In this document: positions 24,495-50,989 of the stretch, in pieces
Layout of the letters: each line of letters starts with the position of its first letter
How positions within the stretch are numbered: position 1 is the stretch's first letter
From: a virus
Reading direction: 5' to 3' (one strand)
IMG/VR virus record: IMGVR_UViG_3300034180_000036
Location: 1-56,503 of that record
Length of the DNA stretch: 56,503 nt
The notes under the pieces: generated by a model
Told to the model about the DNA's origin: nothing
Databases searched by the model: none
What the model saw: only the letters and a program-made list of their open reading frames with translations
Translations under genes and position numbers: made by a program

Positions 24495-27400
24495 CTACCC
24501 TTCGCGATCGTCGTCGTCTTCCGCCGGCACCGTCGCGATCCCGCCGATCGAGAAACCGGTGATCGACCCGTTCTTCACGCGGCGCCACAGGTCGTCGGAA
24601 AGGACCCGAACGGTCATGACCCAAGAGCCCTTTTTGACGTCCTGGCCGCCGAGCTTCATGTCGACCGGCGCGATGTAGCTCTCTACGAGTTCGATGCCCA
24701 GCTCGCCGAAAACGGCATGCATGACACCCATACGGGTCCGACGGTTGTACGCCGCAAGGAAACGGTGCGCCGCGCGCTCGATGGCCGGCGCCCGGATGAA
24801 GTCGTTGTGCGCGTCCGTCTCCATGGGGGTGCCGGGCTCGAGCACGATCCCCGTGACGAGCCGCTTCTCGCCTTCGGCTTTCTCGAGAGCGACCAGCCGG
24901 AGATCTCCGACCGGCCCGTCTTCTTCCTCGATGATCGCTTTCGTCAGCCGCCGGAAGCGCCATGAGTCATCGCGCTTGATCAGGTCGAACGTGCCCGCCA
25001 TCGACGAGCCTTTCAGCACAAACCGAGCGAGCGTGTCCTCGTCAGCAAGCACGTCGAGCGCGCCGACGGCGAGTCGCGACATCGACTCGGCGCCCGCCCA
25101 ATGCCCTTCGGGAAGCTCGCCGTCAATGTCGATGACATCCGGCCCCGCCGCCTTGGTGATCGTCACCGCGTGCTCGCCGCCTTCGATCGCTTCGCCGACC
25201 TCGATCGCGATCGGATCGCGCGCACCGCCGAAGTCCAGATGAAGCACCTGGTGACCGCCCACGTCGTGAAGCGCGAAGCGCGCCGGACGGCCGCCGGTTC
25301 GGTCTTCGTCGAAGCTCGCGGACCATCCATCATCGGCCCGCTTCAGGATCAGGGCGCGGTCGCCGAGGTCGAATCGGATCCCGTCCTCGTCTTCGAGCTC
25401 GGTCCGCTTCGCGATTCCGTGTGCCGCGAGACGATACGTCGGGCTGTCTTCCGTTTCCCCGTGCGTGTCCAACCAGAGTCCCGGCTCCCAACCGAGCCGC
25501 ACCGCAGGGCCCGGATCGGACCAGGCGACCGGGAGCTCGGCGGCCTTCGCGAGACGCACGCGACCACCAACATCGACCGATTCGAGCGACCACGCTTCGA
25601 CGACGTCGCGGTCACCGACTCGGAACTCGAGGCGCGCGCGCGTTCCGTCGAAGACCTGGTGAAGCGCCCATCGCTCCCACCCGACGGCCTTCTTCACCGG
25701 GAGCGGGCGCACGCCGTCGACGTCTTCCCCGTTCGACGCGAGACGATCCTCAGCGTTCTCCATGTGCGCGTCACACACCGGGATGAACGCCTTTCCCTCA
25801 GCCCACAGCACCGCCTTCTGCGCGGGGGCATCACAGAACTTGCACCGGTGCGCCCGCTCGAGCGGCTTGGCGCGGAACTCGACTGCGAGACTCTCGTCGA
25901 GCGCCTTCTCTGTGTCCTCATCGAGCCGCGGGCCCGCCTTGCCCTTGCCCCGGAGGTCGACGTCAACGGCCGCCCCTGCGAGGAAGGAATCGACGCGCGC
26001 GCGCGCCCATGAGCGCGCATCGACTCCGGCTCTCTGAACGGGTGAGAGCATTGCGGCGCCGCGGTGCCATGCGACACGGAGAGCGCCGAGTTCGGCTTTG
26101 TGCTCTTCCGCCTTCGCCGCGAGCTCAGCTTCGACGTCCAGGCCCAGAGTGCGATCGCCGGCACGCAACGCGGCTTCGACCTTCGCCTTGTGTCGTCGCC
26201 ACACCTTCGTCGCCCATGCGCGTCCCGCTTCGCCGCCGCGCAGAAGATACGAGACCCACTGCGGAGACGGCGCCGACGGGTCGCCCCAGCCCGCCGCGCG
26301 TGGCGCGCGTGCGTTCTGCGCGAAGAACGCGACCATCTGTCCGACAGCGTCGACCGGCACAGCACGACCAGCGTCCAGGTCGTACGCGCGCGCGATCGCG
26401 ACCGGCGAGCCACCACGCGCGAAAGACTCGAAGAGCTCGAGCCCACGGCGCGCCGCGGCGGCAACATCCTTCGGAGGCGTCACGCCATGCGTTTCGGACT
26501 TCGCGATCTTCACCCCGAAGTTGTTGAAGATCTTGATCTCGGACGACCCCGAAAAGCCGCCGGTCCGCGCCGACATCGTCGACTCGACGAAGCGCGAACC
26601 GAGGTCGAGTTCGCCTTGAAACGCGACGATCGCCTTGCCCTTCAGATCCTTCACGGCCTGCTCGAACTTCACGACGTCGAAGTTGGTCCACGCCTCGCCG
26701 ATGCCCGGGATCACCTTGCCGGGCGCGCGCCCGCCCGACAGCCACGGCGGATCGAAGAAGAAGACCGTCCGTGGTCCGTCGTACTTCGCCAGCTTCTTCA
26801 GCGCATCGCCTTCGACGAGCTCGACGTTCGCCAAGCGCTCGCGCCACTTCTCAAGGTTGCGCAGGAAGACAGACGCATCGCGTGCCTGAACCGATGCGGA
26901 GAAGTCGGGCCCGACGCCGGCGCCACGCACGGAGAAGTGATTGAGGTACTTCGCGCGATACGCCTGGCGCCGCGGATCGCCCTTGAACTTCATCGCCTTG
27001 AGCCGCGCGAAGTTGGACGGCGACCAGCGCCAGAACTGCTTTCGCATCCACGCGAAGTCGCTGTCGTCGCCGGTCTTCAGAAAACGCAGAACGGCCATGA
27101 CGTCGGGATCGATGTCGATGATGACCTCTCGATCGCTGGGCTCCTTCGCGAAGAGCACGGCCGCGCCGCCGGCGTACGCCTCGACGTACGTGTCGTGTTC
27201 CGGGAGCATGTCGACGAGCTGTCGCGCGAAGGCTGACTTGCCCCCAGGGCTCTTGAGCGGCTTCGGGATGCCGGTCGCCTTCTCGACCGCGACAACGGCC
27301 CACGGATCGCCGTCGATCGCGAAGCGTTGGGCTTTCGCCACCTCCGCAAGTTCAACGTCTTCCGCAAGGTCGAACTCGAGCACGCGAGGATCCACGTCGC

Positions 27401-28262
27401 CGATCGCGCTGTACGGGTCCAGGTCTGCGCTCTTCAGAACCGGCGCGCTGAGCGCGTCGAGTTCGGACGGGGCGCTTGGGTGCTCGAGGCCGCGCCGTCC
27501 GAGCTCGGCAACGATGAGAGCGTGTCGGTTCACGTCGGCGCGCAGATCGTCGGACGCCTCGGCATGAACGCGCGCGTGCTCGATCAGAAGCGCCGACGTC
27601 CGCTCGGTGCGCGGGTCGACCGACTTGCGGATCTTCTGACCGCCCAGGCTCGGCAGCACCCGCTTTTTGAAGTCGGCCATCGGGACAACGAGCACCGGCC
27701 CAAGGTGCTCGGCCGCCATGTGCTCGAGGTAGCTGTCGATCGCTTCGGCGCGCGAAGCGTAGCCGAGCATCACCTTCCACTCGTCGAACTGGCCCGGCTC
27801 CATGCCGAGGTTTTCGATCTCCCATTCGCCGGCGAGCTGCGCGATCACGAAGGCATGACTCGCGTCTTCCACCGGCCCGACGTACACGTCGAGCTCCTCG
27901 CCGTCCGCTCCGGTCGTCCCGCGGATGTAGCCGTAATCGGCCTTCATCTCGCGCCGAAAGTCGCTGTCTTCGTACTCGCGGACGGAGCCCGCCGGCCACT
28001 CGACCATGACCGGGATCCCTTGGAACGTCCGCTTCGTCTGCACCTCGTCGTTCTTGAGCAGTCGACGGAGCTTCGCTTGTCCGACTTCGCCGAGAAGATT
28101 CCACTGATCACGGACAGCGCGCAGGAACGGATCGGCGTCTCGGATCGCGCCCGCGATTCCGTCGCCGAGTCCGCGCTCGGGGGGCGTCTCGGTCTTCTTG
28201 GTGAGCGCCTTCCGGCGCGCGCGCGACGTGCGCGGGGCGATGAAGGGCGACGGCCTCGTCAT
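24495..28262 (-). CDS. Giant multidomain (polyvalent) protein: pyrophosphatase-like + Dam-like methyltransferase + XkdF prohead protease
   Basis: The protein has 1255 residues from ATG 28262; GTG 28337 is a longer alternative. Residues about 80-200 match the pyrophosphatase-like domain of phage polyvalent proteins (VMVEWPAGSVR; DYGYIRGTTGADGEELDVYV at 109-128). Residues about 335-595 are a DNA adenine methyltransferase-like domain: SPGGKSAFARQLV (motif X region), DTYVEAYAGGAAVLF (motif I), and FFFDPPW at 501-507, a DPPW variant of DPPY. Residues about 806-835 hold a Cys/His cluster (CKFC, VCDAH). The C-terminal about 145 residues are an XkdF-type serine protease: MGVMHAVFG (His1182), VESYIAP (Ser1195) and GSITGFSIGG. 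It should process scaffold and capsid. The attached enzymes may be injected with DNA. Confidence 0.85.
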   Translation of the reverse strand: MTRPSPFIAPRTSRARRKALTKKTETPPERGLGDGIAGAIRDADPFLRAVRDQWNLLGEVGQAKLRRLLKNDEVQTKRTFQGIPVMVEWPAGSVREYEDSDFRREMKADYGYIRGTTGADGEELDVYVGPVEDASHAFVIAQLAGEWEIENLGMEPGQFDEWKVMLGYASRAEAIDSYLEHMAAEHLGPVLVVPMADFKKRVLPSLGGQKIRKSVDPRTERTSALLIEHARVHAEASDDLRADVNRHALIVAELGRRGLEHPSAPSELDALSAPVLKSADLDPYSAIGDVDPRVLEFDLAEDVELAEVAKAQRFAIDGDPWAVVAVEKATGIPKPLKSPGGKSAFARQLVDMLPEHDTYVEAYAGGAAVLFAKEPSDREVIIDIDPDVMAVLRFLKTGDDSDFAWMRKQFWRWSPSNFARLKAMKFKGDPRRQAYRAKYLNHFSVRGAGVGPDFSASVQARDASVFLRNLEKWRERLANVELVEGDALKKLAKYDGPRTVFFFDPPWLSGGRAPGKVIPGIGEAWTNFDVVKFEQAVKDLKGKAIVAFQGELDLGSRFVESTMSARTGGFSGSSEIKIFNNFGVKIAKSETHGVTPPKDVAAAARRGLELFESFARGGSPVAIARAYDLDAGRAVPVDAVGQMVAFFAQNARAPRAAGWGDPSAPSPQWVSYLLRGGEAGRAWATKVWRRHKAKVEAALRAGDRTLGLDVEAELAAKAEEHKAELGALRVAWHRGAAMLSPVQRAGVDARSWARARVDSFLAGAAVDVDLRGKGKAGPRLDEDTEKALDESLAVEFRAKPLERAHRCKFCDAPAQKAVLWAEGKAFIPVCDAHMENAEDRLASNGEDVDGVRPLPVKKAVGWERWALHQVFDGTRARLEFRVGDRDVVEAWSLESVDVGGRVRLAKAAELPVAWSDPGPAVRLGWEPGLWLDTHGETEDSPTYRLAAHGIAKRTELEDEDGIRFDLGDRALILKRADDGWSASFDEDRTGGRPARFALHDVGGHQVLHLDFGGARDPIAIEVGEAIEGGEHAVTITKAAGPDVIDIDGELPEGHWAGAESMSRLAVGALDVLADEDTLARFVLKGSSMAGTFDLIKRDDSWRFRRLTKAIIEEEDGPVGDLRLVALEKAEGEKRLVTGIVLEPGTPMETDAHNDFIRAPAIERAAHRFLAAYNRRTRMGVMHAVFGELGIELVESYIAPVDMKLGGQDVKKGSWVMTVRVLSDDLWRRVKNGSITGFSIGGIATVPAEDDDDREG

Positions 28263-37523: not shown

Positions 37524-38237
37524 CTACCGCTCTTCGGCCGACCGTGGCAAGCGCGCCGCGACGAAGGCCCGCTCGGGCGGATCGAGCATGCGACGGATCT
37601 GCGTCGGGTCGAAACGACGTCCGGTCCGAGAGCGACGGCCGAGCGCATCGAGGCGATCAGCGATCTTCCGGAACGAAGTCCCCGTCGCGCGAAGCGACTG
37701 AACGTGTGCGACGACCGTTTGCTCTTCCGCGTCGCGAACGAGCGACCCGTCGCACGCGCGCCACCCATACGGAGGCTCGCCACCGACGTAGCCGCCCCGG
37801 CGAGACTTCGAAGCGAGAGCGCTCGACGTTCGCGACGCGCCCTCTTCGCGCTCCCACTGGACGACGCTCGCCATGATGTTGATGACGAGCCGTCCCATCG
37901 GTGAGGCCGTGTCGAGCGACTCGACGACAGAGAAGAGCCGGCGCCGCTTCGCGAAGGTCTCGTCGAGCAACGCGTTGAGGTCGAGCAACGAACGCGTCAG
38001 CCGATCGAGTTTGTAGACGATCAGCGCGTCGGCACGCTCTTCGAGCGCGGCCAACGCGGCCTGAACGCCAGGACGTTCGAGCGTCTTTGCCGACCAGCCA
38101 GCGTCCTCGAAGATCTCGACGAGCTCGAGGCCTTGCGCCACGGCGTAGGCCGTCACGCGCTCCCGTTGCATGTCGAGACTGATCCCGTCGTCAGCCTGTC
38201 CCGCTGTTGAAACGCGGACGTATGCGACCGCTTTCAT
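37524..38237 (-). CDS. Small serine recombinase (resolvase/invertase family)
   Basis: The start is ATG 38237, overlapping the upstream stop as ATGA. The 237-residue product has the catalytic domain signature MKAVAYVRVSTAGQADDG with Ser10, 'ALIVYKLDRLTRSLLDLNAL' and 'MGRLVINIMASVVQWEREE'. A 'GGEPPYGWRA' segment and a C-terminal DNA-binding part (SFRKIADRLDALGRRSRTGR) follow. It cuts and rejoins DNA through a serine intermediate. It is short for a large serine integrase: the usual zinc and coiled-coil region is absent. It may act as invertase, resolvase or a minimal integrase. Confidence 0.85.
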   Translation of the reverse strand: MKAVAYVRVSTAGQADDGISLDMQRERVTAYAVAQGLELVEIFEDAGWSAKTLERPGVQAALAALEERADALIVYKLDRLTRSLLDLNALLDETFAKRRRLFSVVESLDTASPMGRLVINIMASVVQWEREEGASRTSSALASKSRRGGYVGGEPPYGWRACDGSLVRDAEEQTVVAHVQSLRATGTSFRKIADRLDALGRRSRTGRRFDPTQIRRMLDPPERAFVAARLPRSAEER

Positions 38238-38470
38238 CGACCACCACCCGCGATCAGCGTCAGGGTCGGCGGGGCCCCGGAGGTCTCCCACGCGTCGAAG
38301 ACTTCGCGTGCGATCCGTTCGTAGAGCTCGAACTTCGGCGTCGCGCCGAAGCGTGCGTGGTAGGCGCGCGCGGCGATCGCGAGCGCGCGCGGCGACGGAT
38401 GCCCGTCCGGACAGAACTTCGGACCGACGCGCGCCTTCATCCACGCGCGGATCCGCGCGGGCGCGATCAC
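38234..38470 (-). CDS. Possible separate 78-aa protein inside the C-terminal end of the DpdA-like frame
   Basis: GTG 38470 overlaps the stop of the 125-residue gene as GTGA and is in frame with the DpdA-like ORF. The segment (VIAPARIRAWMKARVGPKFC onward) looks truly coding, with a conserved-looking 'DGHPSPRALAIAARAYHARFG' and a C-terminal helix. It probably represents an independent coupled gene between the nested gene and the recombinase. No family was recognised. Confidence 0.5.
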   Translation of the reverse strand: MIAPARIRAWMKARVGPKFCPDGHPSPRALAIAARAYHARFGATPKFELYERIAREVFDAWETSGAPPTLTLIAGGGR

Positions 38471-39901
38471 GCGAAGCCCTGCGCGAACGACATCGAGAAG
38501 ATCAGCGGCATCATCATGAAGGCGCGATCCAGCTTCACGATGTGCATCTCCCCGTGCTGAAGGCCGCGAACGACCACGCCCCATTCGCCGAACGGCAGGT
38601 CGTCCGGCGTCAACGTCGCCGCCCATCCGGTCCTGACCTTCCGCGGCTCGAGGTCGCCCAGGAACGCGCTCGACAGCGCTTGCGTCAGGAGCTCGCGATT
38701 GTTCGCCTTCGCGAAGAGCGTGTCCGGCTCCCGAGTCGAACGCACGATGCGGACGTTGTTCTCTCGCTTCGTCTCGGGCACTTGCTCGAGCACCGTCGCA
38801 AAGCACATGTGACCTCGGCTCAAGACCAGGAAGTAGGGGCGCATCGTCAGACTCCTCAGAGAAGACCGCGCGCACCGCTCGGCGCTTGCGCTCCGAACCG
38901 GTCTCGCGGTGATGAAAGTGCGCCCACGCGCGTTCGAGCGCGAGCTCGACCAACGGATCGAGCGCCCACTCGATGCCGTTCGGCGCATCGGTGATCAACC
39001 ACGCGTCGAGGTCAGCGCGCGCGGCGACGACATCGTCGGTCGTGGCGTAGGGGATCGAAGCGAGCTCGTCAAGGAACGCGGTCCGCGCGCGCCCACGCAA
39101 CCACGACGACGGCTCAGAGATCGAATCCGTGAAGTCGATCGGATCCATCCCGTCGGTTGCGGCCCAGCACTCGCCGGCGAGCTCGTCGGTGGCTTCGTCG
39201 AGCGCGAGCGTCAGCGGGCGCGGGCCGCCCCCGCGTCCGTTGCGACGCCCGACCAGCGCCTTCAGGCGCACGCTGTCACAGGTCAAGAGGGCGCCGGCGC
39301 GCTCGACTGCCGCGGCAGCCGCGCCGTACCGCGGAGATTCCGGCCCCAGCCCGAGCAGGTGAACGGCCGCCGGCCGCCACTCCGCGAGGAAGGCGCGGAG
39401 CTCACCGATCGACGTCGCATCCTTCTTCATCGGCACGCCACAAACGAACGGCAACGCGAGGAGCTCGGCCGCACGGTCGGCGAAGGCCGCCATCGAAAGC
39501 TCGCCCTTCTGGATCGGGACGATGATCCGCGCTCCCGCGCGATGAAGCTGTCGAAGCTCGGAGGCATACCGCTCGAGCCGCTCGAGCGTGACGACCTGAT
39601 TCCCGACCATGTCGGGCGCCACAAGCCACGCACCGGCCTCGAGCCCCGCGAGCGCGCGGTAGACGCCGAAGACGCGCGACCAGTGCTCAGCGCCCAACGG
39701 GCGCACGACGTTCGGCCCCGTCGGCCCGAACTCGACTTCGCTGAACGCGCCCGAGTCGACGAACACCGGCACACGAACGGAGGCGAGTTCCGTCATGGCC
39801 CGCGGCGAGAGCTCCGGCACGGCGACGCCGAGCGCCTGACCGGCATCGTCGAGGCCGCGAACGTCACCAGGGCGGTTCGAGCCGCTCGCGAAGTAGATCA
39901 T
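38234..39901 (-). CDS. DpdA/tRNA-guanine transglycosylase-like protein (555-codon ORF)
   Basis: ATG 39901 overlaps the preceding stop (ATGA). Residues 1-300 fit a TGT-type TIM barrel as in DpdA: MIYFASGSNRPGD, VFVDSGAF near 46-53 (candidate catalytic Asp), AGAWLVAPDMVGNQ (second Asp), IIVPIQKGELSMAAFA, FVCGVPMKKDA and VHLLGLGPES. DpdA-type enzymes insert 7-deazaguanine bases into DNA, a known phage defence against restriction. No deazaguanine synthesis genes are in the window. Residues beyond about 345 are Arg-rich and overlap a better-looking gene in another frame, so the native end is uncertain. The frame stays open to 38234. Confidence 0.6.
   Translation of the reverse strand: MIYFASGSNRPGDVRGLDDAGQALGVAVPELSPRAMTELASVRVPVFVDSGAFSEVEFGPTGPNVVRPLGAEHWSRVFGVYRALAGLEAGAWLVAPDMVGNQVVTLERLERYASELRQLHRAGARIIVPIQKGELSMAAFADRAAELLALPFVCGVPMKKDATSIGELRAFLAEWRPAAVHLLGLGPESPRYGAAAAAVERAGALLTCDSVRLKALVGRRNGRGGGPRPLTLALDEATDELAGECWAATDGMDPIDFTDSISEPSSWLRGRARTAFLDELASIPYATTDDVVAARADLDAWLITDAPNGIEWALDPLVELALERAWAHFHHRETGSERKRRAVRAVFSEESDDAPLLPGLEPRSHVLCDGARASARDEAREQRPHRAFDSGAGHALREGEQSRAPDASAVERVPGRPRAAEGQDRMGGDVDAGRPAVRRMGRGRSRPSARGDAHREAGSRLHDDAADLLDVVRAGLRVIAPARIRAWMKARVGPKFCPDGHPSPRALAIAARAYHARFGATPKFELYERIAREVFDAWETSGAPPTLTLIAGGGR
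38467..38844 (-). CDS. Uncharacterised protein nested within the DpdA-like ORF, 125 aa
   Basis: ATG 38844 has a GAGGAG site eight bases upstream, and the translation (MRPYFLVLSRGHMCFATVLE) is clearly more protein-like than the overlapping frame. It contains 'FAKANNRELLTQALSSAFLG', 'GWAATLTPDDLPFGEWGVVV' and a C-terminal Met-rich 'RAFMMMPLIFSMSFAQ'. No family was recognised. Overlap with the DpdA-like ORF means one of the two frames, probably the DpdA tail, is not functional here. Confidence 0.65.
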   Translation of the reverse strand: MRPYFLVLSRGHMCFATVLEQVPETKRENNVRIVRSTREPDTLFAKANNRELLTQALSSAFLGDLEPRKVRTGWAATLTPDDLPFGEWGVVVRGLQHGEMHIVKLDRAFMMMPLIFSMSFAQGFA

Positions 39902-40089
39902 CGCGTGTACCGCCGCACGCCGCCGAAGACGGACCAGGACGCGACGACGTCGCCGTCGCTGTTGCGAATCGACGCCTCGAACCCCGCGCCCTTCGCGGCC
40001 TCGAGCGCCGCATCGACGGTCGGGAAGACGCCGTCTTTGGTGTACCCGAAGTTGGTGAAGAAGACCGTGAAGCCCGTCGTCGTCGTCAT
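39898..40089 (-). CDS. Cassette gene, small protein, 63 aa
   Basis: ATG 40089 lies six bases after the -10 of its cassette and begins ATGACGACGACGACG (MTTTTGFTVFF). The product has a compact alpha/beta pattern: 'FTNFGYTKDGVFPTVDAALE' then 'AAKGAGFEASIRNSDGDVVA' ending 'WSVFGGVRRYTR'. No family was recognised. It is the first gene of a coupled unit leading to the DpdA-like protein and the recombinase. Confidence 0.7.
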   Translation of the reverse strand: MTTTTGFTVFFTNFGYTKDGVFPTVDAALEAAKGAGFEASIRNSDGDVVASWSVFGGVRRYTR

Positions 40090-40095
40090 GCTCTT

Positions 40096-40124
40096 GTTGT
40101 ACGGCCGCCCGTCCGCAAAGTCAA
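40096..40124 (-). promoter_or_regulatory. Cassette promoter P40
   Basis: -35 TTGACT 40119-40124; spacer 17; -10 TACAAC 40096-40101. Operator dyad GCAT-CGAA-ATGC at 40125-40136 abuts the -35. It drives the 63-residue gene and, through coupled stops, the DpdA-like operon. Confidence 0.85.
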
Positions 40125-40919: not shown

Positions 40920-41128
40920 GAGAGCTCCGCCACCGCGAAGGTGCGGCGCGAGTCGCAGAGGAACCAGGCGCCCGACTTCACGTTGCGAACGAGGCCGCGC
41001 TCGCCGCCGCGGGGGCCGCGAACCGAGAGAACGCCCTTCTCGAGGGTCCCGCTCACGACGGTGAAGGTCTTCGCCTTCAGGTGCCCGTCGAGGCGGATGG
41101 TCAGCGTCGTGTTCGTCGTCGTCGTCAT
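40916..41128 (-). CDS. Cassette gene, small beta-rich protein, 70 aa
   Basis: ATG 41128 follows P41 by six bases and begins ATGACGACGACGACG. The product has 'LTIRLDGHLKAKTFTVVSGT' and 'KGVLSVRGPRGGERGLVRNV', ending in FAVAELS: a small beta-barrel-like pattern. No family was recognised. It heads a three-gene coupled unit (41128 to 40141). Confidence 0.7.
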   Translation of the reverse strand: MTTTTNTTLTIRLDGHLKAKTFTVVSGTLEKGVLSVRGPRGGERGLVRNVKSGAWFLCDSRRTFAVAELS

Positions 41129-41134
41129 GCTTCT

Positions 41135-41163
41135 CTTGTACGGTCGCCCGTCGGCAAAGTCAA
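41135..41163 (-). promoter_or_regulatory. Cassette promoter P41
   Basis: -35 TTGACT 41158-41163; spacer 17; -10 TACAAG 41135-41140. The upstream GCA-CTTCGA-TGC dyad is present. Confidence 0.85.
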
Positions 41164-41181: not shown

Positions 41182-41925
41182 TTAGACGGCGCGACGCCAT
41201 CGACGCTTTCGGCAGATCGGAGCCCGATCCAGGCGGCGCCGGCTCGGTCGATCGCGCGTGCCGCCTCGACTCAAGGCCTCTTCCACGAAGCCCGCCGCTC
41301 GCAGGCTTGCGCCGAGTTCGGTCTCGAGCGTGTAGGTGATCAGAGCATCGGCGATCCCGAGAGCTCGCGCCTTCCGCACACATGCCCCATAGAGCGCGCT
41401 CGCGATGTTCCGGCGAAGAGCCGGATGGCCCCACGCGCACACGCGCGTGACCTCGAGCGTGCGCGGCTCAGCCGCCTCGAGCAGCCGCGAGACCGGCCGC
41501 CCGACGACCGCCACGCCGACCAGCACCCCGCCGTTGTAGGCCGCGACCGAGAACTTGTGCGAGGTCGGCGCGTCCGGCATGTGTCGGTGATGGGCCTCGA
41601 CAGCGCTGAAGACGAAGTCGCGCCAGCCGGCCGGCGACCGAACGGCCGGCCGCCCACGGCGCTCCCAGAGCTCGCCAGGCGCCTCCGTCTCGATCCGCCC
41701 GCGGACGGTGCCATCGTCCGTCACCTCGCGCACGTCGCAGCTCAGAAGCTCGCTCAGCATCGTCTCGAGAGGGAAGCCGGCGAAGGCTTCGAAGCCGAAG
41801 GCCGCGACCTCCGCTTCGGCGGCCTCGCAGCACGGCGCCCACTCGAGCCAGCGATCGCCGTCGCCGCGAAACACCTCGACGTGCTCGTCGAAGGGGGTCT
41901 CGCAGAACCCGCACTCGCCGAACAT
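41182..41925 (-). CDS. XF1762/Mom-like GNAT-family acyltransferase, 247 aa
   Basis: ATG 41925 overlaps the preceding stop (TGATG). The N-terminus has CGFCETPFDEHV and a Cys pair (CCEAAE), possibly a metal site. Residues about 120-225 match the GNAT fold of the XF1762 family: SHKFSVAAYNGGVLVGVAVV, GRPVSRLLEAAEPRTLEVTR and VCAWGHPALRRNIASALYGA, then ALGIADALITYTLETELGAS. XF1762-type proteins are related to phage Mu Mom, which modifies adenines in phage DNA against restriction. A DNA-modifying role is known for Mom; here it is inferred. Confidence 0.7.
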   Translation of the reverse strand: MFGECGFCETPFDEHVEVFRGDGDRWLEWAPCCEAAEAEVAAFGFEAFAGFPLETMLSELLSCDVREVTDDGTVRGRIETEAPGELWERRGRPAVRSPAGWRDFVFSAVEAHHRHMPDAPTSHKFSVAAYNGGVLVGVAVVGRPVSRLLEAAEPRTLEVTRVCAWGHPALRRNIASALYGACVRKARALGIADALITYTLETELGASLRAAGFVEEALSRGGTRDRPSRRRLDRAPICRKRRWRRAV

Positions 41926-42412: not shown

Positions 42413-42826
42413 TCAGCGCCCAGCGCACTCGGGACCGAAGCCGCTCTCGACGCTCGAGGGGACCGTGAGGGCCCGTCCGCACTTGCCACATCGGCCTTCG
42501 TGGTACAGCTTCGCCGGGATGTCCGCGCCCGCCTGAAGGCGCCCGAAGACCCACCCGAAGCCCTTCACCGAAGGGGCGGACGCGCTGATCGTCGAGCGCT
42601 TCCCCGGCACGAAGCGCCGGCCGTCGAAGATCGTCCCGATGAAGGTGAAGTCGGTCGTGTTGCTCGGCCCCGTGAGCACCTTCACGAAGTGAACGCCCTG
42701 CGCGTCCTTCTTCGCGGACACCTTGTAGGTGAAGCGCCCGCCGCGCTCGCTCTCGACGGTGAAGACCGCTCGCCCTGCGAGCATGAAGCTGATCGGGTTG
42801 CCGTTGATCTCGTGTCGCGTCGTCAT
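42413..42826 (-). CDS. Cassette gene, DUF6011-like C-terminal zinc motif, 137 aa
   Basis: ATG 42826 lies six bases after the P42b -10 (MTTRHEINGNPISF). Residues about 20-105 form a single-strand-rich domain (RFTYKVSAKKDAQGVHFVKV, TTDFTFIGTIFDGRRFVPGK). The C-terminus carries 'HEGRCGKCGRALTVPSSVES' followed by GFGPECA, the conserved Cys/His arrangement of DUF6011. This small phage family is of unknown function, probably zinc-binding. It is a single-gene cassette with a hairpin after its stop. Confidence 0.75.
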   Translation of the reverse strand: MTTRHEINGNPISFMLAGRAVFTVESERGGRFTYKVSAKKDAQGVHFVKVLTGPSNTTDFTFIGTIFDGRRFVPGKRSTISASAPSVKGFGWVFGRLQAGADIPAKLYHEGRCGKCGRALTVPSSVESGFGPECAGR

Positions 42827-42832
42827 GCCCCT

Positions 42833-42861
42833 GTTATACGGGCGGCCCGTCGCGAAGTCAA
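42833..42861 (-). promoter_or_regulatory. Cassette promoter P42b
   Basis: -35 TTGACT 42856-42861; spacer 17; -10 TATAAC 42833-42838; AGCA-N6-TGCT dyad upstream. AGGGGC links -10 to ATG. Confidence 0.85.
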
Positions 42862-42879
42862 GCACCGATATGCTGATTT

Positions 42880-43392
42880 TCAGACGGCGCGCGCGGGACG
42901 ACTGCGCGCGCGCTCGAGCAGGCCGGCGAGCTCGTCGGGGGGAATGGCGAGCCCGCCGGCCCGAGTCACCGCCTCGTCGAGCCGTTGGGGGGCCCGACCG
43001 ATGAACGCGAAGCCGCGCCGGATCGTTTCGACGTAGGCCGTCGACGGCTGTCCGCGCGCTTCGGGTCGGTTGTGGACGTAGACCCACAGATCCGCACCGC
43101 GCTGCGCGCCCTGCCGCACGCGAGCGGCCACGCGACTGTAGACGTGCGGCGCGCCCTCGAAGCGGTCCAGGATGTCGAGATCGGCCCTCGAGACCTCCCA
43201 AAGCACGCCGGTCGTCATCGCGCCGGCGCACTTCTCGATCGTCGCGACCGCGCCGCCCCATCCGGCCGACCGGCCGACGAAGGCGAGGCGGTGCCCGGCA
43301 AGGTCGTACACGCCACGGAAGGTGGCGGATCGGCAGCGCTGCCGCATTTGCTTGGGGTCCATGTTGGACCCGAAGGCGAAAACCAAAGGCAT
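42880..43392 (-). CDS. Gamma-glutamylcyclotransferase-like protein A, 170 aa
   Basis: ATG 43392 has AAAGGGG seven bases upstream. Residues 4-11 are VFAFGSNM, the glycine-rich GGCT loop, and Glu79 in LDRFEGAPHVYSR fits the catalytic acid. 'GVLWEVSRADLDILDRFEGA' and 'WVYVHNRPEARGQPSTAYVE' are typical. GGCT-fold enzymes release 5-oxoproline from gamma-glutamyl groups or cleave gamma-glutamyl amines. It is one of two such proteins in this window near an amidoligase, suggesting joint handling of a glutamyl-type modification. Confidence 0.82.
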   Translation of the reverse strand: MPLVFAFGSNMDPKQMRQRCRSATFRGVYDLAGHRLAFVGRSAGWGGAVATIEKCAGAMTTGVLWEVSRADLDILDRFEGAPHVYSRVAARVRQGAQRGADLWVYVHNRPEARGQPSTAYVETIRRGFAFIGRAPQRLDEAVTRAGGLAIPPDELAGLLERARSRPARAV

Positions 43393-43434
43393 TTCGAGCC
43401 CCTTTCTACCCCATCGGGTTTCGCGGCGGAAGGT

Positions 43435-43464
43435 GCGGCGGAAACTCTTCACACTTTCCGCCGC
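43435..43464. terminator. Perfect 10-bp hairpin between cassette genes
   Basis: GCGGCGGAAA (43435-43444) pairs with TTTCCGCCGC (43455-43464). It lies just past the stop of the 112-residue gene on the minus strand, in front of GGCT A, and may end that transcript. Confidence 0.6.
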
Positions 43465-43471
43465 GTGCGGC

Positions 43472-43810
43472 TCACGCGAAGCACGCGAGAAGCCGCGCCG
43501 CCGCCCGCTGGTCCATCCAGACAGGGATCGCGGGAACGAGCGAACGCGTTTCCCACTTCCGCGGCTCGAGCTCGCCGCGCAGATCGAAGACGCGGTAAGC
43601 GCGCTCGGTCATCGTGGGGGTGCGGCCGTAGCGGCCGAACTCGACGAGGCCCTTGTCGTAGAGCCCCTGAAGGACGTTCGCCGCGATCTGAACGGTCCAC
43701 AGGCCGGCCGAAACGAAGATCTCCTCGAGCGCGAGGAACTCGTCGCGCGTCACGCGCACGAGGCCGGTGTCGATCACGTTCGGGATGCTGCGCTTCGTCG
43801 TCGTCGTCAT
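43472..43810 (-). CDS. Cassette gene, winged-helix-like protein, 112 aa
   Basis: ATG 43810 is six bases after the P43 -10 and begins with four Thr codons (MTTTTKRSIPNVI). 'VTRDEFLALEEIFVSAGLWT', 'VQIAANVLQGLYDKGLVEFG' and 'RTPTMTERAYRVFDLRGELE' resemble a small winged-helix, with 'GLYDKGLVE' as the recognition part. A DNA-binding role is plausible but not proven. It is followed by a hairpin. Confidence 0.6.
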   Translation of the reverse strand: MTTTTKRSIPNVIDTGLVRVTRDEFLALEEIFVSAGLWTVQIAANVLQGLYDKGLVEFGRYGRTPTMTERAYRVFDLRGELEPRKWETRSLVPAIPVWMDQRAAARLLACFA

Positions 43811-43816
43811 GCCCCT

Positions 43817-43845
43817 GTTATGCGGCCGCGCCGACGCGAAGTCAA
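43817..43845 (-). promoter_or_regulatory. Cassette promoter P43
   Basis: -35 TTGACT 43840-43845; spacer 17; -10 CATAAC 43817-43822; AGCA-N6-TGCT dyad upstream. Confidence 0.8.
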
Positions 43846-43957
43846 GCACAAAAATGCTGGCCTTTGTCGTTTTTCTCGTCTCGCGCCTGACGCGCCGTGC
43901 GCCGTTCTGACGGCCTCGAGCGCCCGCCCCCACGCGAGGCGCGCCGAGGTCGCTCGA

Positions 43958-44626
43958 TCACTTCACGCGCACGCCTGAGACGTCCTGAGCGTGCGAGAGC
44001 GCCACGAGCCCGAGGTCGGCCACGAGCTCGAGATAGGCCGCCGCCTGAGCGCCCTTCGTCTCGCCGTCGGGCACCGCGACGACGCCGCCGCTGACGCCGG
44101 CTATCATCGCCACCGACGCAACGATCCAGTCGGCGACCGTCGCGCCGTCGTGCTCGATCCCCCACGGCTCCGCGCGCATCCGCGCGACGACGTCGAGCGC
44201 ACGTCCGACGCGGATCCGCTTCGTGTGGACGTGCTCGACGACGAGGATAGGGCCGGCCGCCGGCTCACGCCACGCGCCGCTCTCAACCCTGCGCAGGCCG
44301 CCGAGCTCGCCTCCCCACACGTAGATCCACACCATGCGGCCGTCGAGCGTGTGGCGCGCTTCGCGGCGGTACATGCCGACGTCGACACCCTCGAGCCGGT
44401 CGAGCGTCGCGAGCTCGCGCGCCGTGACGCGGAAGACCTCGCCGTGAACGAGGCGCCGGCCACCCTCGACGACCATCGGGAAGCGAGCGTTTTCGTAGAG
44501 CTCGAAACCCTCGACTGCGGCTTCGCCCCTGAACTCGGCGCGCTCGATCAGATAGTGATTCCAATGAGTTCGCATGAGCGAGCCGTAAACGAAGACGAGG
44601 TCGGTGGTCTGAATGTCGGTGGTCAT
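43958..44626 (-). CDS. Gamma-glutamylcyclotransferase-like protein B, 222 aa
   Basis: The start is ATG 44626 (MTTDIQTTD) with GAAGGGAAAG upstream. Residues 11-18 are VFVYGSLM and Glu79 in LDRLEGVDVGMYRR fits the GGCT catalytic acid. 'ARFPMVVEGGRRLVHGEVFR' and 'MVWIYVWGGELGG' agree with AIG2/GGCT proteins. The extra C-terminal 100 residues (YLELVADLGLVALSHAQDVS) are unassigned. It lies downstream of the amidoligase, separated by a hairpin. A shared role with the ligase is inferred. It has no cassette promoter of its own, yet keeps the MTT start. Confidence 0.78.
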   Translation of the reverse strand: MTTDIQTTDLVFVYGSLMRTHWNHYLIERAEFRGEAAVEGFELYENARFPMVVEGGRRLVHGEVFRVTARELATLDRLEGVDVGMYRREARHTLDGRMVWIYVWGGELGGLRRVESGAWREPAAGPILVVEHVHTKRIRVGRALDVVARMRAEPWGIEHDGATVADWIVASVAMIAGVSGGVVAVPDGETKGAQAAAYLELVADLGLVALSHAQDVSGVRVK

Positions 44627-44659
44627 GGCGATCTTTCCCTTCGATTTCAAGAGGTTGTG

Positions 44660-44681
44660 GGGGCCGGCCGAAGCCGGCCCC
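44660..44681. terminator. 9-bp hairpin with CGAA loop after the amidoligase gene
   Basis: GGGGCCGGC (44660-44668), loop CGAA, GCCGGCCCC (44673-44681). The hairpin is ten bases from the amidoligase stop, a likely transcript-ending or RNA-protecting structure. Confidence 0.65.
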
Positions 44682-44690
44682 GTGGATGCT

Positions 44691-45617
44691 TCACGCCGCG
44701 GCGCGGGCGCGGGGGGCGCGGGTCCCGCCCGGGCGATCCGACGTCCGGCTTCCGCCGCGGACCGAGCCGGGAAGCGCCGCGATCAGGTGGTCGCGAACGT
44801 TCTTGTAGTAGTCACCCGTAAGGCCGAGACGGTGGTAGAGGAACCGATACATCGTCCACTTGGCGTCGTCGTAGGAGACGGCCGCCTTCGCGACGCGGAT
44901 GTTCTTCGCGCTCTTCGCGTAGGCGACGAGGCCGAGGCAAAGCGCGATGTAGGAGCGGACCTTGCCCGCGTGCAAGGTGCCGTTAAACCAACGGAATTCG
45001 ACCGTGCCGCGGAACCACACGTTGTGGAGGTTGAGACCGGCGTAGCGCGTGCCGTCGTAGTGCGACGGCGCGGGGTTGTTGTGGCCGTACCACGCGACGT
45101 TCGCGTCGCTGAGCGTCTTCGCGCCCTTGAGAGCCTTCGCCTTCTCCTCGGTCGTGGCCTTGCAGTAGCGGGCCGCCCGCGAAGCGTGAACGCCGAGCGC
45201 GCGGGTGATCAGCTCTTCGCGGCTGTAGACCAGCGCGGCGAGGTTGCCGACCGCCTTCGCGGTGAGGCCCTGAGCGCCCACGTGGACGTGGATCCCGCAC
45301 TGCTCGTCGCAGCGCGCGCCGGCCCGACGAAGAGCGCGAACGACGCGCTGGACCGTTTCGACATCCTCGCGCCCCTGAAGGATCGGCGAGACGATCTCGG
45401 ACGAAACGCCCGAAAGCGAAGAGTCGTTCATGCAGCGCCACTTGCGGCCGTCGGCGAGGCGCACGTAGACCGACTGGTAGTAGTCGCGTCCGTGCTCGAG
45501 GATCCCGCCGAGCTCGGCCTGAATCGCCTGCGCGGCGCGGAGGTTGTTGATCCGCTTGGTCTCGATCTCGATGCCGAAGGTCAGGTTCTCAGTGGCCGCG
45601 TTGTTCGTCGTCGTCAT
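44691..45617 (-). CDS. Amidoligase-family enzyme
   Basis: ATG 45617 is six bases after the P45 -10 (MTTTNNAATEN). The 308-residue protein matches the amidoligase family (COOH-NH2 ligase, glutamine-synthetase-like fold): FGIEIETKRI near 14-23, 'SDSSLSG'-type segment SSLSGVSSEIVSPIL near 67-81, CGIHVHVG near 107-114, and FRWFNGTL later. Known relatives form amide bonds between carboxylates and amines in peptide or small-molecule synthesis, and often neighbour GGCT and GNAT genes. The tail (RGGSRTSDRPGGTRAPRARAA) is basic and disordered. Confidence 0.85.
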   Translation of the reverse strand: MTTTNNAATENLTFGIEIETKRINNLRAAQAIQAELGGILEHGRDYYQSVYVRLADGRKWRCMNDSSLSGVSSEIVSPILQGREDVETVQRVVRALRRAGARCDEQCGIHVHVGAQGLTAKAVGNLAALVYSREELITRALGVHASRAARYCKATTEEKAKALKGAKTLSDANVAWYGHNNPAPSHYDGTRYAGLNLHNVWFRGTVEFRWFNGTLHAGKVRSYIALCLGLVAYAKSAKNIRVAKAAVSYDDAKWTMYRFLYHRLGLTGDYYKNVRDHLIAALPGSVRGGSRTSDRPGGTRAPRARAAA

Positions 45618-45623
45618 GCTTTT

Positions 45624-45652
45624 GTTATACGGATTCTCTCCCGCGATATCAA
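45624..45652 (-). promoter_or_regulatory. Cassette promoter P45
   Basis: -35 TTGATA 45647-45652; spacer 17; -10 TATAAC 45624-45629; GCAT-TTTT-ATGC dyad upstream. It drives the amidoligase. Confidence 0.82.
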
Positions 45653-46913: not shown

Positions 46914-47840
46914 TCACGCGCGCGCCACGGCGCGGATCACCGCGGCGGCCAACGGCGGGGGGATTGCGTTTCCGACAAGACGGGTCCCCGGCGAGAGCGC
47001 ACGCGGGAGCTTGTAGTGGTCGCCGAAGCCCTGTCCTCGCGCGAGCTCGCGCACGGTCAAGGGGCGGATCCGATCGCCCTCGACCAGGTGCCAGTGCGAT
47101 CCCACGGTCGTGATCGTCCGCATGTGACCGTCGAGCGGCACGCCCGAGCACGATGTGACGTGCTGAACGAGGAAGGTCCGCCCGTGCCGTTTGCGGCCTC
47201 GCGCGACGCGCCGTCGCACGCCGATCGGCTTCGACGCGACGGGGGCCCAACCGCCCGCGCACGGCTCGAGGATCGTCCGCACCGGCGGCGCCGGCGACCG
47301 TTCGAAAGCGAGCTCGGGATGGGCCCCGAGGAACGCCGTCACCACAACGCGATGGCGACGTTGCGGCACGCCGAAGTCGTGCGCCCACAGCTTGTGGATC
47401 CGCGCTTCGTAGCCGAGCGCCTCAAGCGCGGCGAGCCATGGCCTGAAGAGGATCCAACGCGTGAACGGGATCGTGTTCTCGACGATCAGCGCACGCGGGC
47501 GGATGACCTCGGCCGCCGTCACGACAGCCCATGCGGTGTTGCGATCCGCGTCGTGACGCATCGCCACGCGACCGGACCGATCCGCCTTGCGCCCGGGCTG
47601 ACCGCACTCCGCGTGCCCGCGGCACGAAGGCGACGCGAGGATCAGATCGCAGCCGCCGACCAGGTGTCGAAAGTCGGCCTGGTGAAGGTCTTGCACGGCG
47701 TGCTCGACCTCGGGGTGGTTCCGCGCGTGGTATTCGACCGCGAGGCGGTTGTGATTCGCGGCCCATCGCACCGGCACGCCGGCGAGGCGCGCCCCTTCGG
47801 TGAAGCCGCCGGCGCCGGCGAAGAGGTCGATCGCTTTCAT
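46914..47840 (-). CDS. C5-cytosine DNA methyltransferase (Dcm-like) with variant catalytic motif
   Basis: ATG 47840 overlaps the preceding stop (ATGA). The 308-residue protein has motif I IDLFAGAGGFTEG at 4-16, a catalytic loop LASPSCRGHAECG (Cys73) instead of the usual PPCQ, VENTIPF at 120-126 in place of ENV, QRRHRVVV (motif VIII), and VGNAIPPPLAAAV near 287 (motif X). A target region with RVARGRKRHGRTF lies between. Such enzymes transfer methyl to cytosine C5 and protect phage DNA from restriction. The PSC and ENT variants are unusual, but many phage members vary here. Confidence 0.88.
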   Translation of the reverse strand: MKAIDLFAGAGGFTEGARLAGVPVRWAANHNRLAVEYHARNHPEVEHAVQDLHQADFRHLVGGCDLILASPSCRGHAECGQPGRKADRSGRVAMRHDADRNTAWAVVTAAEVIRPRALIVENTIPFTRWILFRPWLAALEALGYEARIHKLWAHDFGVPQRRHRVVVTAFLGAHPELAFERSPAPPVRTILEPCAGGWAPVASKPIGVRRRVARGRKRHGRTFLVQHVTSCSGVPLDGHMRTITTVGSHWHLVEGDRIRPLTVRELARGQGFGDHYKLPRALSPGTRLVGNAIPPPLAAAVIRAVARA

Positions 47841-48220: not shown

Positions 48221-48249
48221 TTGACTTCGCCGCGCGGTGGCCGTACAAC
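48221..48249 (+). promoter_or_regulatory. Cassette promoter P48b (plus strand)
   Basis: -35 TTGACT 48221-48226; spacer 17; -10 TACAAC 48244-48249; dyad GCAT-TTGC-ATGC at 48209-48220. It drives the 54-residue gene. Confidence 0.85.
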
Positions 48250-48260
48250 ACAACAGAAGC

Positions 48261-48425
48261 ATGACGACGACGGACATGACCGAGACCGACTTCGCGCCCT
48301 GGCCCGACCCCACCGACGGCGACGCCGCCGCCGCCGAAGACTTCATCGACCTCACCGCGTTTTACGCCGAGTTCCTCTCCCTCGCCTGCCGCGGCGACGA
48401 TGGGCTGTGGTATCTCGCCGACTGA
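48261..48425 (+). CDS. Cassette gene, small acidic protein, 54 aa
   Basis: ATG 48261 is 11 bases after the P48b -10 (MTTTDMTETDF). The protein is very acidic: 'TETDFAPWPDPTDGDAAAAE' then 'FIDLTAFYAEFLSLACRG'. This composition is typical of phage DNA-mimic or small inhibitor proteins, but nothing specific was recognised. It is one of three cassette-type genes on the plus strand. Confidence 0.65.
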   Translation: MTTTDMTETDFAPWPDPTDGDAAAAEDFIDLTAFYAEFLSLACRGDDGLWYLAD

Positions 48426-50179: not shown

Positions 50180-50989
50180 TCACCCGAAAGATTCGTCGTC
50201 GTCGAGCAAGTCGATCGCGCGCGTCAGACTGGTCATCGTCGTCTCGACGGTGCCAAGCAATCGCGGCCGATGGTGAAGCTCGCGCGCGGGCGAGACCGGC
50301 GGGAGCGCCGTCATCATGAGCGTCGGCGCATCGTCTTCCACGAACGCCAGGACGCCGGCGGGGCCGGTCGCGTCGGGCTCGTACCGAACCGGACCGTGAC
50401 CGGGCACGATCGTTTGCCAGATCCCGCCCTGATCTTCGACCTCGGTCCGCGGAACGAAACGCCCATCGAGCGGGCCGCCGGCGAGGCGCACGCCGTTGCG
50501 GAAGAGCTCGAGGTCGATCACCGCGCGCGGCGAGATCCATCCGGGGTGCTCGCCGGCGCCCGGATCGCCCACCGGTTGCTGACCTATGCGCGCCTCGCAC
50601 CGCTCGCATGAACCGGTGACGAAGCCGTCGTCGCCCTCGTGCCCCCACGGGGTGAGATGCGTCGTCGCGCCGCAGAACGGGCATGCGACTTCGGACGGCC
50701 ACGGCCCGAGCGTCGAAAGCGTCGAGAGCGTCGGCTCGGCGTTGGGTTCCCAGCTCTTCGCCTCGGTCTTCGTTTCGAACGGACCGAGACACCAGCCGCC
50801 GACGTCCACGAACCAACGCGAGATCAGAACGCTGTTCGTTCGGTCCGGGTCCCGCGGAGCCTCGCGCATCTCGCGCTCGCTCAGCCGTTCGACCAACACG
50901 CCGATCGGCACCGCCTCTTTTGCGAAAGGCCATGCAAGTTCGCTTGCATGATCCTTCTTCCTCCGCAGCAAACGCGACAGCACGCTCAT
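50180..50989 (-). CDS. Uncharacterised protein with zinc-finger-like cysteines, 269 aa
   Basis: ATG 50989 overlaps the preceding stop (ATGA). The N-terminus is basic (MSVLSRLLRRKKDHASELAW). A middle zinc ribbon is formed by CPFCGATT and CERCEA. Further on 'GWISPRAVIDLELFRNGVRL' and 'AGGPLDGRFVPRTEVEDQGG' recall small phage DUF-type beta domains. The C-terminus has 'VETTMTSLTRAIDLLDDDES'. No family was recognised. It is the last gene of a two-gene unit. A CATGCAAG-CGAA-CTTGCATG palindrome lies in its 5' part. Confidence 0.6.
   Translation of the reverse strand: MSVLSRLLRRKKDHASELAWPFAKEAVPIGVLVERLSEREMREAPRDPDRTNSVLISRWFVDVGGWCLGPFETKTEAKSWEPNAEPTLSTLSTLGPWPSEVACPFCGATTHLTPWGHEGDDGFVTGSCERCEARIGQQPVGDPGAGEHPGWISPRAVIDLELFRNGVRLAGGPLDGRFVPRTEVEDQGGIWQTIVPGHGPVRYEPDATGPAGVLAFVEDDAPTLMMTALPPVSPARELHHRPRLLGTVETTMTSLTRAIDLLDDDESFG

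Follow-up and report, generated by a model that had tools for sequence, protein, structure and literature searches.

We analysed a 56,503-nucleotide stretch of bacteriophage DNA, positions 1 to 56,503 of the IMG/VR record IMGVR_UViG_3300034180_000036 (hereafter the window), in which a gene for an amidoligase lies close to the genes of two gamma-glutamylcyclotransferase (GGCT)-like enzymes, here called GGCT A and GGCT B. The three genes are the following:

44691–45617, minus strand: amidoligase of 308 aa (Amidoligase_2, glutamine-synthetase fold), assigned from PF12224, conserved residues and an AlphaFold2 model
43958–44626, minus strand: GGCT B, 222 aa, B-type (gamma-glutamylamine cyclotransferase (GGACT)/YtfP-like), Glu79 intact, assigned from PF06094 and GGACT structures
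42880–43392, minus strand: GGCT A, 170 aa, A-type (human GGCT-like), Glu79 intact, assigned from PF06094, AIG2_2 and human GGCT

A previous reading of this DNA from its sequence alone (the sequence-only reading) had proposed that an amidoligase and two intact cyclotransferases lie here, and all three are indeed present and intact. The distances that it gave were also correct, GGCT B adjoining the ligase (64 bp) and GGCT A being 1.3 kb away from it. By contrast, its description of the ligase as flanked by the two enzymes had to be abandoned, since both cyclotransferases are located on the same, downstream side.

The product of the ligase gene matched PF12224 over 244 of 245 positions (E-value of 3e-48; 165 bits for a cut-off of 22) and contains the conserved active-site pattern of Amidoligase_2 (ExE, W, D, S, E, CGxHxH, RY, ExR). 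In an alignment with about 166 ligase relatives, every column conserved at 100% was also kept in the window ligase; the loss of key residues, against which the sequence-only reading had cautioned, was thus not seen. As judged from the AlphaFold2 model (pLDDT of 95), the ligase is an intact enzyme of the glutamine-synthetase fold. Comparison of this model with VIA-align gave Z-scores of 13.8 for YbdK, 13.2 for plant glutamate-cysteine ligase and 11.5 for Dop, and the neighbours following the first two were glutamine synthetases, Dop and gamma-glutamylmethylamide synthetase. YbdK, the plant enzyme, gamma-glutamylmethylamide synthetase and Dop have this fold in common with the window ligase, itself a predicted ligase, at about 11–14% identity. 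Glutamate-cysteine ligases, glutamine synthetases, Dop and gamma-glutamylmethylamide synthetase all act on the gamma-carboxylate of a glutamate, which supports a gamma-glutamyl product for the window ligase without proving it.

PF06094 matched GGCT B with an E-value of 1e-23 and GGCT A with an E-value of 2e-12 (48 bits, cut-off 22.8). GGCT A was also matched by AIG2_2 (1e-8) and by human GGCT (6e-8), and its GSN loop reads FGSNM, while the structure of GGCT B could be superposed on mouse GGACT (1vkb) over 117 residues (Z-score of 16.0, root-mean-square deviation of 2.0). The glutamate typical of the family is residue 79 in both enzymes, as previously claimed: counted from the printed alignments, it stands opposite Glu98 of human GGCT in GGCT A and opposite Glu82 of human GGACT in GGCT B, and it was 100% conserved in 137 A-type and 13 B-type relatives. 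GGCT A thus has a sequence match and the catalytic glutamate in common with human GGCT, and GGCT B the fold and the catalytic glutamate in common with human GGACT, from which it differs by a C-terminal extension. E. coli YtfP resembles GGCT B but has no aligned glutamate. The relatives of the two enzymes form two subfamilies, a human GGCT-like one (A) and a GGACT/YtfP-like one (B).

To describe the wider distribution of these genes, we used 80 viral and 80 bacterial loci sampled with the amidoligase alone as bait. Within the ligase genes and 1.5 kb on each side (651 kb in total), there were 142 cyclotransferase matches, against 7 in the rest of the 160 loci (1,084 kb), a 34-fold difference in density. 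The co-occurrence beyond this genome on which the sequence-only reading depended is therefore real. A cyclotransferase was found in 68 of the 80 viral and 72 of the 80 bacterial loci, mostly within 1 kb downstream and on the same strand. In the annotated phage collection, 43 records contained an A-type relative and the ligase was also present in 41 of them, the two others both being records of Bacillus phage G, and a search of the plasmid collection recovered a single relative, on an 8-kb plasmid. Many of the loci are related mobile elements, so that these counts are not independent, and one could imagine a hitch-hiking set of genes without functional link, held together by module exchange. 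This explanation has very little probability in our opinion, because the linkage is maintained while gene order shifts, spans both phage-type and conjugation-type clusters with the local enrichment just given, and extends to fusions between A and B. The linkage between ligase and cyclotransferase is far beyond chance despite the kinship among loci, so that these genes probably act together as one functional unit.

One A-type and one B-type cyclotransferase were found together in the window and in 12 other loci, which are diverged and GC-rich. Their gene order varies (ligase-B-A, ligase-A-B or A-ligase-B) and in two of them, L009 and L020, A and B are fused into a single, uninterrupted reading frame. 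In the ligase tree, the window and all A+B loci fell within one clade of 25 ligases (support 100/99), whereas at most one cyclotransferase was detected with each of the other 89 sequences, most of which come from phages and elements of Bacillota. The window ligase and several others form long branches, and the branching order inside this clade is uncertain. Six loci (L003, L008, L010, L013, L016, and L017) contain too little sequence past the ligase for their cyclotransferases to be typed, and L027 had no cyclotransferase although its sequence past the ligase was long enough. The sequence-only reading had suggested that the two cyclotransferases undo or process a glutamyl-type amide made by the ligase. 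This suggestion fits the predicted enzyme classes; however, the two are not simply redundant, since an A-type and a B-type enzyme are also paired in 12 other loci.

A class II glutamine amidotransferase (PF13522, 5.6e-20) was encoded in all five loci of the same clade that have only a B-type enzyme and in four loci that end early, but in none of the 12 A+B loci. PF13522 had no match in the window record either, as opposed to 14 of 14 control genomes, although this record may be a fragment. The loci with an amidotransferase form one sub-branch of the ligase tree, and the mutual exclusion of A-type cyclotransferase and amidotransferase thus corresponds to a single swap, which is suggestive rather than statistically strong. 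Both enzymes would act on a gamma-glutamyl amide and free an amine or ammonia, so that their exchange would make sense.

These observations led us to consider the ligase, GGCT A and GGCT B as parts of a single module, carried by mobile elements, for the synthesis and selective cleavage of gamma-glutamyl-type amides, a reading to which we give an even chance. The reaction and the order of its steps would be as follows. The amidoligase would activate the gamma-carboxylate of glutamate with ATP and join the glutamate to an amine, like its structural neighbours (glutamate-cysteine ligases, gamma-glutamylmethylamide synthetase, Pup enzymes); GGCT B, being GGACT-like, would then split gamma-glutamylamines and GGCT A, being GGCT-like, gamma-glutamyl amino acids, in each case with release of the amine part and formation of 5-oxoproline. 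The ligation would then be transient, or trimmed to one site. A comparable logic is known in butirosin synthesis, where the ligase BtrJ adds a gamma-glutamyl group that the cyclotransferase BtrG later removes; BtrJ is however an ATP-grasp enzyme, whereas the window ligase has the glutamine-synthetase fold. As a first guess, which is speculative, the target of the module could be the host cell envelope.

Several points weigh against this proposal. The accessible literature reports no activity for any Amidoligase_2 protein, and structure cannot discriminate the acyl donor or acceptor. Having a ligase together with bond-breaking enzymes in the same operon would serve no purpose if all of them had the same substrates. 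The exclusion between A-type cyclotransferase and amidotransferase rests on one evolutionary event. Finally, the neighbours in phage-type loci are terminase, DNA methyltransferase and S-adenosylmethionine synthetase genes and not lysis genes.

Associations of amidoligase and cyclotransferase have already been published (PMC5513430; PMC3485107; PMC10945688; PMC3890496; PMC11318856), such neighbourhoods having first been proposed by Iyer et al. (2009), as related in later papers (e.g., PMC11318856). In the Bacillota pair (Ca. Heliusvirales phages, Terrisporobacter TPDSL_ph1, Tn6164 island) and in Arthrobacter cluster AL phages, a ligase of the same family is directly followed by a cyclotransferase, of A type where compared (PMC5513430; PMC3485107; PMC11253131). 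These systems have one cyclotransferase only and the ligases of Bacillota cluster separately in the tree, whose other main clade includes the window ligase; with both A and B, the window cannot be assigned to the Heliusvirales-type pair, in which an A-type GGCT is the sole cyclotransferase. The cassette of the podoviruses phiEco32, LUZ24 and RIO-1 combines, like the window, an amidoligase with a B-like cyclotransferase (PMC3890496; PMC5498523), but it also includes class II glutamine amidotransferase and ATP-grasp genes that were not found in the window, and no A-type enzyme has been described there. For ATP-grasp proteins, the window record was searched for the RimK type, without match. A search with PF14395 had no match in any control. 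In the literature accessible without subscription, which excludes papers such as Iyer et al. (2009), we came across no mention of the A+B variant, of the A-B fusions or of the small domain presented below. The pair is thus known, while the A+B variant appears to be new.

Marker genes classified 73 loci as phage-like and 36 bacterial loci as conjugation-like, leaving 51, including the A+B loci, unassigned. The conjugation markers were VirB4, the MobL relaxase, PrgI and NlpC/P60, PrgI being named from its position in the cluster and its small membrane-like sequence, with no Pfam match. In conjugation-like loci, the ligase-cyclotransferase pair was often located between VirB4 and the NlpC/P60 hydrolase, and several loci exhibited the order PrgI, VirB4, amidoligase, GGCT, NlpC/P60, MobL. 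Bacillota conjugation clusters with VirB4, NlpC/P60 and MobL enclosing the pair were seen in L106, L107, L109, L111, L116, L120, L121, and L123. Terminase relatives, used as a pointer to the host, gave distant and mixed matches only.

The proximity of NlpC/P60 in the transfer clusters of conjugative-type loci is a hint toward the envelope. It is also in agreement with a published hypothesis for phiEco32, LUZ24, RIO-1 and their relatives, in which the cell wall is modified for superinfection exclusion: the ligase would add unusual peptidoglycan side-chain linkages, and the cyclotransferases would process or degrade peptidoglycan peptides. This was proposed for podovirus cassettes of gamma-glutamyl amidoligase, GGCT, glutamine amidotransferase and ATP-grasp genes (PMC5498523; PMC11253131; PMC11318856, the latter citing Iyer et al.). 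The literature searched contains no direct evidence for it, the window yielded no match to either of the two additional enzyme types of these cassettes (class II amidotransferase, RimK-type ATP-grasp), and the pair lies near packaging and methyltransferase genes in phage-type loci. We regard this role as a serious possibility, though somewhat less than evenly probable.

Seventeen other loci encode, as a separate gene next to the ligase or a cyclotransferase, a member of a family of small domains of about 75 residues. The family had no Pfam match, and the members scanned had no significant PHROG match. A candidate copy is present in the window:

44009–44209, minus strand: C-terminal extension of GGCT B, candidate fused copy of the small domain, from a hidden Markov model (HMM) of the 17 copies

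Among B-type enzymes, only that of the window has this extension. The HMM scored it at 13.9 bits, the best value among the predicted genes of the window, for a maximum of 6.2 bits in 2000 shuffles; the extension was not reported in a search of all open frames, and the structure prediction for this part of GGCT B gave an unreliable fold. The small domain is probably fused to GGCT B in the window, as far as sequence can indicate.

Such a domain, as a possible tag, target or adaptor, could be accommodated by protein tagging. By analogy with the Pup ligase/depupylase system, glutamate or a peptide would be joined to protein lysines, and GGCT B would reverse the reaction. The similarity of the ligase model to Dop and the fact that gamma-glutamylamines are substrates of GGACT-type enzymes are consistent with this scenario; as Dop came behind YbdK and glutamate-cysteine ligase in the structural ranking, we nevertheless find it unlikely. 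The domain is more difficult to reconcile with an auxiliary role in nitrogen or amino-acid metabolism, in which the enzymes would feed the gamma-glutamyl cycle for the benefit of the infected host. This was proposed for Phage-ZRK32, whose host lacks amidoligase and GGCT genes (PMC10945688), but the growth effect reported there came from the whole phage and not from these genes. This role would not account for the selected linkage, seen in phages as well as in conjugative elements, nor for the A-B fusions and the small extra domain, and we consider it quite improbable.

Returning to a module that makes and breaks gamma-glutamyl-type amides, one may extend it to a self-contained, four-part write-and-erase system in which the ligase works with two cyclotransferases that differ in specificity, and in which the small domain serves as substrate or adaptor. 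This system would be common to phages and conjugative elements with a shared envelope target, and A-type cyclotransferase and class II amidotransferase would be interchangeable steps. Taken as a whole, this extension is tentative and rather unlikely to be correct in all its parts. Pairs of amidoligase and cyclotransferase are often encountered in phages from the gut and the environment as well as in conjugative-type elements, but since 2009 knowledge of their chemistry has not gone beyond prediction. The A+B variant would narrow this chemistry, as it suggests two erasers that are non-redundant and yet close enough in action to be fused, one of which a glutamine amidotransferase may be able to replace; the small partner would be a possible substrate or adaptor, and the presence of the pair inside conjugation clusters points to a function common to two kinds of mobile element.

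The sequence-only reading had included a GNAT gene in the neighbourhood:

41182–41925, minus strand: Mom-like GNAT (phrog_1384, E-value of 6e-20; NCBIfam XF1762 family, 9e-37), neighbour outside the conserved module

The gene is real. Its membership in the module was ruled out because no Mom-like relative occurs in any related locus. Proteins of the Mom-like family carry out an acyl-modification of DNA adenine. Together with a C5 methyltransferase gene at 46914 in the window, and with the methyltransferases common beside the ligase in other loci, this GNAT could suggest that the ligase and cyclotransferases participate in DNA or nucleotide modification. However, methyltransferases are common phage genes anyway, and as the related loci have no Mom-like relative, this function seems highly doubtful. 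Another candidate for DNA modification was the protein encoded at 38999–39901 (open frame 38234–39901, overlapped by a second gene call at 38467–38844), whose motif pattern recalls by eye the TIM barrels of TGT/DpdA. It was rejected, since the Pfam TGT search was negative and PDB and PADLOC provided nothing useful; it has one viral relative, in L170.

The remaining features close to the three genes concern their transcription:

45615–45652, minus strand: promoter-like element TTGATA-N17-TATAAC-N6-ATG before the ligase, one of about eleven near-identical copies
44660–44681, minus strand: GC-rich hairpin between amidoligase and GGCT B (9-bp stem, TTCG loop, no T tract)
43472–43810, minus strand: 112-aa protein with its own promoter copy at about 43811–43847, apparent first gene of the unit ending with GGCT A
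42413–42826, minus strand: DUF6011 protein adjoining GGCT A, with a DUF6011 relative also beside GGCT A in L025

Two transcription units are apparent, one with the ligase and GGCT B, the other with the 112-aa gene and GGCT A. The 112-aa protein had no Pfam or PHROG match and no relative among the related loci. A DUF6011 protein and an A-type cyclotransferase are adjacent in L025 (4593–5518), as they are in the window (42413–43392); this being the only other such locus, DUF6011 is unproven as a member of the module.

About eleven near-identical elements of the form TTGACT-N17-TACAAC-N6-ATG are distributed on both strands between 36590 and 49716 of the window (besides the copy before the ligase, e.g., 42824–42861, 41126–41163, 40087–40124, and 48221–48263), and the genes directly behind them mostly begin ATGACGACGACG. 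The pattern had 12 matches in the window, ten of them clearly the element, against 0–1 in first-order Markov resampling. A strict consensus promoter scan reported none because it demands T at the last −10 position, where these copies end in C. The N6 spacing places the ATG near the expected transcription start, predicting leaderless mRNAs; the genes behind these elements are thus predicted to form leaderless single-gene or short units and are probably co-regulated.

Elsewhere in the window, 24495–28262 encodes a polyvalent-protein-like head protein of 1255 aa, whose several domains include segments of a minor head protein, a Dam-like DNA methyltransferase and a head maturation protease. A serine recombinase is encoded at 37524–38237; with only 237 aa, it is below the size of typical large serine integrases and is possibly truncated. 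A weak match to a Lar-like restriction-alleviation zinc ribbon (E-value of 6.6e-4) was observed at 50180–50911.

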